From Cyanobacteria bacterium MH1_Bin12 (lineage in GTDB: Bacteria; Cyanobacteriota; Cyanobacteriia; Cyanobacteriales; Cyanobacteriaceae), in assembly GCA_011088145.1 (NCBI GenBank), contig JAALKG010000007.1:1-41526 (forward strand): a stretch of DNA of 41,526 bases, given 5' to 3'. How positions within the stretch are numbered: the first letter of the stretch is position 1; every line of letters starts with the position of its first letter. A program made the position numbers and the translations under genes. The notes beneath the pieces are model-generated. The model was given only the letters and a program-made list of their open reading frames with translations. It was not told where the DNA came from and did not search any database. This document shows positions 6,621 through 24,747 of this stretch, piece by piece.

Positions 6621-6695
6621 AACTGCATAAGCTAAAAAATGGGCAACTATAACCTCACAACAAACAACCAAAGAAAATTACAGAGGTTTCCAATT
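6621..6695 (+). promoter_or_regulatory. Conserved 5' leader of repeat-protein gene (copy A)
   Basis: AACTGCATAAG(C)TAAAAAA..G.GCAACTATAACCTCACAACA...AAAATTACAGAGGTTT..AATTATG is shared with minus-strand 24748..24824. Confidence 0.7.
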
Positions 6696-7175
6696 ATGAC
6701 TTTCTTATCTATTTCCTACAAAAAAACATTGAACATGACCGTTGCTACCGCTCTAATTATTGGAGGATTAGCGACAATTGTCTCTCCTGCAAAGGCTGAT
6801 AATTATGCGGCATCAAATCAACAAGTTAATCAAGTTGGGGTGGCAGTTGGTCAACATAATTCCGTATTAAATAGTACCGCTCAAGTTAATCTTCAAAAAC
6901 AAACTGGTTTTTTAAATGGTGGTAATAATACAGCTGTTTCTAACACATTGGGTAGTCAAACAGGAGTTGCTAATGGTTTTGGCAATAATGTTAGTAATGG
7001 TTTATTACAAACCAATATCCAACAACAAACCGGCGCAGTGGGATTTGGAAATAACACAGGTATTTCGCAAATGGGTGCAAGTCAAACAGGTGCAGGTATA
7101 GGTTTTGGTAATAATCTACTCAATCAAACCAATCAAATTAATAATCAAACTCAAGTAGATGTATTTGGACTTTAA
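6696..7175 (+). CDS. Exported curlin-like tandem-repeat protein (copy A)
   Basis: Signal peptide MTFLSISYKKTLNMTVATALIIGGLATIVSPAKA followed by five QxG...GNN repeats of 23,19,23,19,21 residues. ATG 6696 is chosen because its paralog starts at the equivalent codon. Confidence 0.75.
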   Translation: MTFLSISYKKTLNMTVATALIIGGLATIVSPAKADNYAASNQQVNQVGVAVGQHNSVLNSTAQVNLQKQTGFLNGGNNTAVSNTLGSQTGVANGFGNNVSNGLLQTNIQQQTGAVGFGNNTGISQMGASQTGAGIGFGNNLLNQTNQINNQTQVDVFGL

Positions 7176-8295: not shown

Positions 8296-8763
8296 ATGAA
8301 TATTTTTAATCTCAATAAAATAACACTTAGAAATAACAAGTTTTTATCGATCGCATTATTACCTATTAGTTTAGGACTGAGTATTATTAATGTCAACTTA
8401 GCATCGGCAAAACCTGTGACCTACGATTTTACCGTCAACGTAGTTAAAGGTTCCTTAAAAGGTAATACCTATAATGGTCATTTTTCCTATGATAATGAGA
8501 CATTAACAGGTAAAGGTAGAGAAACAATTAATGCCCAAAATGGTTTGAAAGTATGTATGAATTTTTTTAACCAGATGCATAGTGAAACTAAAGATGTTGA
8601 CTATCCTCAATATCCCGTTTTAATTTTTAAACAAGGACAACCTGAAACTTTAGATTTTTGGATGGAATCTCGTGAACGTGATATCTGGTGGAATCGTAAC
8701 GGCTGGGAAGTAGAAATATCTCCAAGAGAAAATAGCTCAGAAATAAGCGATTGTAACAAGTAG
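8296..8763 (+). CDS. Hypothetical exported protein
   Basis: N-terminal hydrophobic signal sequence ending ASA-KPVTYDFTVNVVKGSLKG; intact ORF. Confidence 0.55.
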   Translation: MNIFNLNKITLRNNKFLSIALLPISLGLSIINVNLASAKPVTYDFTVNVVKGSLKGNTYNGHFSYDNETLTGKGRETINAQNGLKVCMNFFNQMHSETKDVDYPQYPVLIFKQGQPETLDFWMESRERDIWWNRNGWEVEISPRENSSEISDCNK

Positions 8764-23732: not shown

Positions 23733-24152
23733 CTAAGGTTGGAAAGGAAGCCCCAAAGAATCCATAAAATCAGGATCATGGGCTGGACTATAAACATCAA
23801 TGGGAACACTAATTTGAGTTTGAATAGCAGGAGTGGAAAAACCTGAGATAGAAGAATTACTATTATTCTCATTACCGACAAAAAGTTGACTAGTTCGTCC
23901 TTGATTCCCATGACCAGAACCAACATAAACTTGAGTGGAAAGATTAGTTACATTATTACCCCAACAATTATCCGTGCTTCCCATTGAGACATCATTGCTT
24001 TGATTACTGGGAGTCTGAGAGCCACGCACCGCAACTTGTAAAGAAACGTCAGTCATCACACAAGAAGCATCAGCAGGTGAAGAGATAATCGGCATCACAG
24101 CTAAACTTGAGCCAAATAAGAGAAAAAGAGAACCAAATTTTAAAAAATTCAT
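23733..24152 (-). CDS. Exported N/Q/S-rich protein, putative partner of the curlin-like repeat protein
   Basis: MNFLKFGSLFLLFGSSLAVMPIISSPADA signal peptide; mature region ...STQVYVGSGHGNQGRTSQLFVGNENNSNSSISG; same strand and directly downstream of 24265..24747. Confidence 0.65.
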   Translation of the reverse strand: MNFLKFGSLFLLFGSSLAVMPIISSPADASCVMTDVSLQVAVRGSQTPSNQSNDVSMGSTDNCWGNNVTNLSTQVYVGSGHGNQGRTSQLFVGNENNSNSSISGFSTPAIQTQISVPIDVYSPAHDPDFMDSLGLPFQP

Positions 24153-24264: not shown

Positions 24265-24747
24265 TTAGAAACCAAATACATCCACTTGATTTTGATTGTT
24301 GGTTTGATTGGTTTGATTGAAGATATTATTACCAAAACCTATACCTGCTCCTGTTTGATTTGTGCCCATTTGAGAAACGGCAGTATTATTTCCAAATCCA
24401 ACGGCTCCTGTTTGTTGCTGAAGATTGCCTTGAAATAAACTGTTACCAACATTATTGCCCAAACCATTAGCAACTCCTGTTTGGCTACCCATCGTGTTAG
24501 AAACAGCAGTATTGTTCCCACCATTAAAAGCACCAACTTGTTTTTGAAGATTCACTTGAGCCGCACTATTAAATACCGAGTTATTTTGACCAACTGCAAC
24601 ACCAACTTGATTCATTTGTTGGTTTGATTCAGCATAGTTGTCTGCCTTGGCAGGAGAGATAACAGCAGTTAAGCCTCCGACTAAAATTAAACCTGTAGCA
24701 ACGCTGATTTGGAAAGCTTTTTGATAAGAAATAGATAAGAAACTCAT
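24265..24747 (-). CDS. Exported curlin-like tandem-repeat protein (copy B)
   Basis: Paralog of 6696..7175 with the same repeat order 23,19,23,19,21 and C-terminal QVDVFGF. Confidence 0.78.
   Translation of the reverse strand: MSFLSISYQKAFQISVATGLILVGGLTAVISPAKADNYAESNQQMNQVGVAVGQNNSVFNSAAQVNLQKQVGAFNGGNNTAVSNTMGSQTGVANGLGNNVGNSLFQGNLQQQTGAVGFGNNTAVSQMGTNQTGAGIGFGNNIFNQTNQTNNQNQVDVFGF

Follow-up and report, generated by a model that had tools for sequence, protein, structure and literature searches.

Exported Gln/Asn-ladder repeat proteins in a conserved cyanobacterial gene cassette with a promoter-like upstream element

Genes and features of the locus

The window (that is, the whole stretch of DNA analysed, 41,526 nucleotides of the genome of Cyanobacteria bacterium MH1_Bin12) carries two paralogous genes for exported repeat proteins, A1 and A2, a gene for a second exported protein, B, and a promoter-like element 5′ of each A gene:

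6621..6653, + strand: promoter-like element AACTGCATAAGCTAAAAAATGGGCAACTATAAC 5′ of A1, conserved before intact A genes; the ATG lies 42 bp past the element end
6696..7175, + strand: gene A1, the gene under study, encoding an exported repeat protein of 159 aa
6696..6797, + strand: A1 signal peptide, residues 1–34, read from the sequence, with cleavage between VSPAKA and DN, a type I cleavage motif (AKA) and no lipobox; KADN is kept in 12 homologues
6831..7172, + strand: A1 repeat region, residues 46–159, with 2.7 copies of a 42-residue unit and the invariant pattern Q-x8-N-x3-N-x3-Q-x3-Q-x-Q
23733..24152, − strand: gene B, second exported protein, 139 aa, with two conserved Cys and a VPIDVYSPAHDP motif, 3′ of A2 on the same strand
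24265..24747, − strand: gene A2, inverted paralogue of A1, 160 aa, 77% identical in amino acids
24791..24823, − strand: the same promoter-like element 5′ of A2; the ATG lies 43 bp past the element end

The start of A1 is placed at 6696 rather than at the in-frame ATG at 6639, given that the homologues start alike and GAGG lies directly 5′ of it. A preliminary description had recognised the open reading frame (6696–7175), the signal peptide and the repeats, all of which the sequence bears out, and its segmentation (residues 46–68, 69–87, 88–110, 111–129 and 130–150, of 23, 19, 23, 19 and 21 residues, then 151–159) proved exact. Aligned with its homologues, A1 reads as a Sec signal peptide followed by a mature part made wholly of repeats, as in a curlin. 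The mature protein has 125 residues, 64% of which are Gln, Asn, Gly, Ser or Thr, and matches itself at 38 of 83 positions at a lag of 42, a value that none of 2,000 shuffles equalled at any lag. As the lags of 19 and 23 are weak when taken singly, the 42-residue super-repeat (23 + 19), already proposed as an alternation of long and short units, is the real unit of A1. Elsewhere in the window, a small exported protein with no Pfam match is encoded 1.1 kb from A1 (8296–8763, + strand), overlapping open reading frames close to the end of the contig (40664–41462, − strand), which carry a DGQHR motif, possibly represent one frameshifted DGQHR-domain gene, and the only Rfam match is a tRNA.

Conservation of the Gln/Asn ladder

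Among 60 whole genomes searched as relatives, A was found in two (the window's own and one other), and strong matches occurred in 8 of 391 genomes of the order, including that of Picosynechococcus sp. PCC 7117. Against a collection of genome contigs, A1 alone gave no homologue and B matched only Picosynechococcus sp. PCC 7117; a plasmid collection held no match for A2 or B. Across 12 A sequences the repeat region is free of indels and 37 mature positions are invariant, 17 of which recur as the same residue 42 positions on (the maximum in 5,000 null trials was 10); Q46, N55, N59, Q63, Q67 and Q69 are all invariant and each recurs at both +42 and +84. Most members also conserve a C-terminal aromatic residue. 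A1 and A2 are 82% identical in DNA, with dN of 0.12 and dS of 0.62, and the A copies are under purifying selection.

Curlins stack Gln/Asn residues in ladders, and recurring Gln/Asn invariants of this kind are the pattern expected of a β-solenoid with similarly stacked ladders, which we infer to be the probable fold of A. AlphaFold models of A1 and B, made with few homologues in the input, have mean pLDDT values of 31 and 36 and give no fold call, and searches of PDB sequences with A and B profiles returned nothing convincing, although CsgA itself matches curlin entries there.

A conserved cassette of exported proteins

In Picosynechococcus sp. PCC 7117, A is followed by a gene whose product is 56% identical to that of B. 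A2 and B (24823–23733) together comprise a 42-residue ladder A gene, an adjacent B homologue and the upstream element; A1 has the element with no B adjoining. The A2 copy was absent from the preliminary description, as were B, the cassette and the element. The order A-B-C, in which C encodes a third exported protein, occurs in three Picosynechococcus genomes and in four genomes of family f8, and the window's genome (G000) has the A-B arrangement; C was not found in that genome (67.5% complete). Neither A, B nor C belongs to a Pfam or NCBIfam family. Wherever the neighbourhood after C was read (three Picosynechococcus genomes, G137, G308 and G338), C is followed by an HTH-like gene of approximately 470–480 aa, a weak assignment given its one sub-threshold Pfam match. 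In loci read further, DUF1822 follows the HTH-like gene (G042, G137 and, by sequence, also G308), and a protein of approximately 1,100 aa comes next in G137 and G308, identified in G137 as CHAT-nSTAND1. At one such locus (L080:5954–11655), the HTH-like, DUF1822 and CHAT-nSTAND1 genes 3′ of A-B-C constitute a possible regulatory or signalling module. The conserved set of secreted-protein genes that A opens is apparently undescribed, and the observations support the view that cyanobacteria have a cassette dedicated to exported ladder-repeat proteins.

Picosynechococcus carries its two A copies in inverted orientation; they are 91–97% identical within a genome, more alike than between genomes, which is probably the result of gene conversion. 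The flanks 5′ of the two copies are exchanged in G115 (L009/L026) relative to G042 (L005/L006); swapped flanks and like copies together suggest recombination between A copies, that is, both gene conversion and chromosomal inversion.

The promoter-like element

The element has the form AACTGCATAAG-N14–15-ACTAT(A/C)AC, spans 33–34 bp, is followed by a short conserved leader and stands 5′ of every intact A gene. The A coding sequences of different genera share only approximately 53% of their bases, yet the element is kept. Of 327 genomes of the order, 7 contain exact matches, 14 in total, and 12 of these matches precede A genes; of the remaining two, one precedes an exported ricin-B-lectin-like gene in the window's genome and one has no nearby gene (G001). 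A reversed-pattern control gave zero exact matches. When up to three mismatches were permitted the control matched as well, and only sites with one or two mismatches and an exported gene behind them were therefore taken as near matches. In the window's genome, exact or near copies lie 37–41 bp 5′ of genes for lectin-like exported proteins and for an exported protein of 113 aa, the near matches being those before the 113-aa protein and before a lectin-related open reading frame with an early stop. Directly behind the element in that genome are a gene for an exported protein with ricin-B-lectin-like repeats (L076:1574–2500) and, on the minus strand of L087, one whose N-terminal domain is related to that protein and which has an early in-frame stop.

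The element before A is triplicated with a 59-bp period in G308 (L012) and G338 (L011), one G338 copy differing by one base. G294 has no exact element, and its A gene has lost its 5′ end beside a transposase-like open reading frame; the loss of A start and element at this locus (L013) represents a natural disruption. We suggest that the element looks like the promoter of a small secreted-protein regulon. The J-Box of Nostoc SigJ (GGGaAtacT, PMC6495340) was rejected as its identity because the sequence differs, and sigma-70 and terminator scans performed no better than on shuffles.

A wider family of B-type loci

Homologues of B occur in 21 of 386 cyanobacterial genomes across the phylum, in 20 genera, and lie in runs of genes for exported proteins, among which short Q/N/G-rich repeat proteins that resemble A are common. 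A profile built from A only detects such proteins in B loci (L047, E = 7e-9; L049, 3e-4; L093, 4e-4) and no shuffles, and at least 13 of 19 A-like proteins outscore all 200 of their own shuffles, so that A appears to be one branch of a group of exported repeat proteins that accompany B across the phylum. The exact upstream element was not seen for these B-cluster repeat proteins in the genomes searched. The B-type clusters L093–L109 also encode a jelly-roll-like exported protein (with a weak match to the GH2 N-domain) and an exported protein ending in a coiled coil, both without a family. B can serve as a marker family for mapping the system across the phylum.

Relationship to curlins and route of export

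The preliminary description had taken the protein for a secreted structural one in which Gln/Asn and Gly are evenly spaced, a part that is well supported, and had compared it with curlins; the search results do not support membership of the curlin family. The curlin-repeat model PF07012 (Curlin_rpt) gave no match for A1 at E ≤ 10, none in the window's genome and none in 386 cyanobacterial genomes at E ≤ 0.01, with the E. coli control positive. The minimal curlin tandem repeat is X6QXGX2NX10 (PMC3521004), and the A family lacks it in tandem: QXGX2N sites number two each in A1 and A2 and zero in 10 other members, against five each in E. coli CsgA and CsgB. Among 500 shuffles of A1, 15 reach its score against CsgA, 350 that against CsgB and 104 that against the repeat HMM; for the family as a whole, CsgA and CsgB scores fall in or close to the interval spanned by shuffles of equal composition, and hhalign aligns only 10–16 columns of A and curlin at a probability below 1%. 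From these comparisons, the likeness of A to curlin appears to be mostly a matter of composition. In a distant genome (G597; L095), two A-like proteins carry literal QXGX2N motifs and, at 29–34 bits, outscore all 200 shuffles against the E. coli curlin-repeat HMM, but the signal vanishes under HMMER composition correction; distant kinship with curlins or convergence may lie behind the likeness. A may work like a curlin, but should not be filed as one.

The ORF list agrees with the earlier statement that the window holds no csgE, csgF or csgG. CsgG was not found in the rest of the window's genome (67.5% complete) and is absent from the cassette-bearing genomes G137, G294 and G308 (99% complete); Picosynechococcus and G338 have a lone CsgG-like gene, the product of which in Picosynechococcus has no lipobox Cys and the neighbours of which are unrelated genes. 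Reading of the loci recognised no CsgE or CsgF beside the A and B genes or the CsgG-like gene. As several nearly complete genomes with the cassette lack CsgG, there is no obvious route by which A would leave the cell, and it may instead reside in the periplasm or the thylakoid lumen.

A proposed function and its alternatives

A secreted structural role for A is well supported by the signal peptide, the ladder in 12 homologues, the purifying selection and the exported neighbours. Our preferred reading, to which we assign a probability of roughly 0.5, is that A is a curli-like structural protein of a fibre or matrix. A1 and A2 would be exported by Sec and, once the signal peptide is removed, each 42-residue unit would probably form two turns (23 + 19) of a flat β-solenoid in which the invariant Gln and Asn residues are stacked in ladders. 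The proteins may subsequently build a fibre or matrix layer, either at the outer membrane or beyond it, with B (beside A) and C (in other genomes) as exported partners, perhaps a minor subunit, a nucleator or an assembly factor. Transcription of A would begin from the dedicated element, and as the element also precedes exported lectin-like genes, we propose that a small regulon of surface or secreted proteins is switched on jointly.

The same features could describe a soluble, non-amyloid β-solenoid of the periplasm or outer surface, for example with a binding or protective role and with B and C as partners. The small, monomer-like size of the protein, the C-terminal aromatic residue, the apparent co-regulation with lectin-like exported proteins in the window's genome and the lack of linked export machinery are all in keeping with this, whereas the retention of two similar copies in several genomes and the constant register of the Gln/Asn ladders favour a structural role; we regard a soluble solenoid as rather improbable. 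Less probable again is that A is a true curli member, that is, a diverged homologue of CsgA/CsgB that leaves the cell through CsgG and assembles into curli amyloid. The Sec signal, the Q/N/G repeat averaging approximately 21 residues, the GFGNN turn shared with the last CsgA repeat, the L095 proteins and the CsgG-like gene of Picosynechococcus would fit, but the empty PF07012 searches with a working control, the shuffle-range scores, the loss of the L095 signal on correction, and the character of the CsgG-like protein and the absence of CsgG from several complete cassette genomes speak against it. The high likeness of A copies within a genome (97.5% of DNA in G115, approximately 80% between genomes) could finally point to a low-complexity exported protein of little specific function that persists through repeat expansion and gene conversion. 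However, residues invariant across genera, dN well below dS, the fixed 42-residue register, the conserved cassette and its dedicated element already disfavour this, and we consider it very improbable.

Beyond the preferred reading of A as a structural protein, we tentatively raise, as a possibility that we hold to be short of even odds, a widespread and undescribed cyanobacterial curli-like fibre system that combines Q/N-ladder subunits (A and A-like proteins) with the partner B, a dedicated promoter, possibly control by HTH, DUF1822 and CHAT-nSTAND proteins, and assembly outside the cell without CsgG. Curli-type functional amyloids have been reported from at least four phyla (PMC3521004); we found no description of them in cyanobacteria in the literature covered, which included few subscription journals. 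The compact cassette, its promoter-like signal and its occurrence in the tractable Picosynechococcus would allow direct study of how cyanobacteria form matrix or fibres and of how such subunits pass the outer membrane without CsgG.

Comparison with known systems

The short Q/N repeat proteins of the B-type clusters (L014/L047, L093, L095 and L097–L109) share with A a signal peptide, Q..G.GN..N...Q repeats and an adjacent B homologue, but have only two or three repeats in 95–170 aa, and their clusters hold other exported proteins in place of C. Alphaproteobacterial curli, which lack CsgE and CsgF and have an additional dedicated gene, csgH (Dueholm et al. 2012, PMC3521004), are a precedent for curli-type subunits without a complete csg set, although their subunits fit curlin repeat models and A proteins do not. 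Compared with CsgA and CsgB, A has no family-model match, no conserved QXGX2N and a 42-residue (23 + 19) super-repeat, its cassette has no csgDEFG linkage and a promoter-like element of its own, and its downstream partner B is not a run of curlin repeats. Both systems nevertheless have small, Sec-exported proteins with about five Q/N/G repeats of approximately 20 residues and an adjoining gene for a second exported protein, and if A forms a stacked-solenoid fibre, the two likely work alike.
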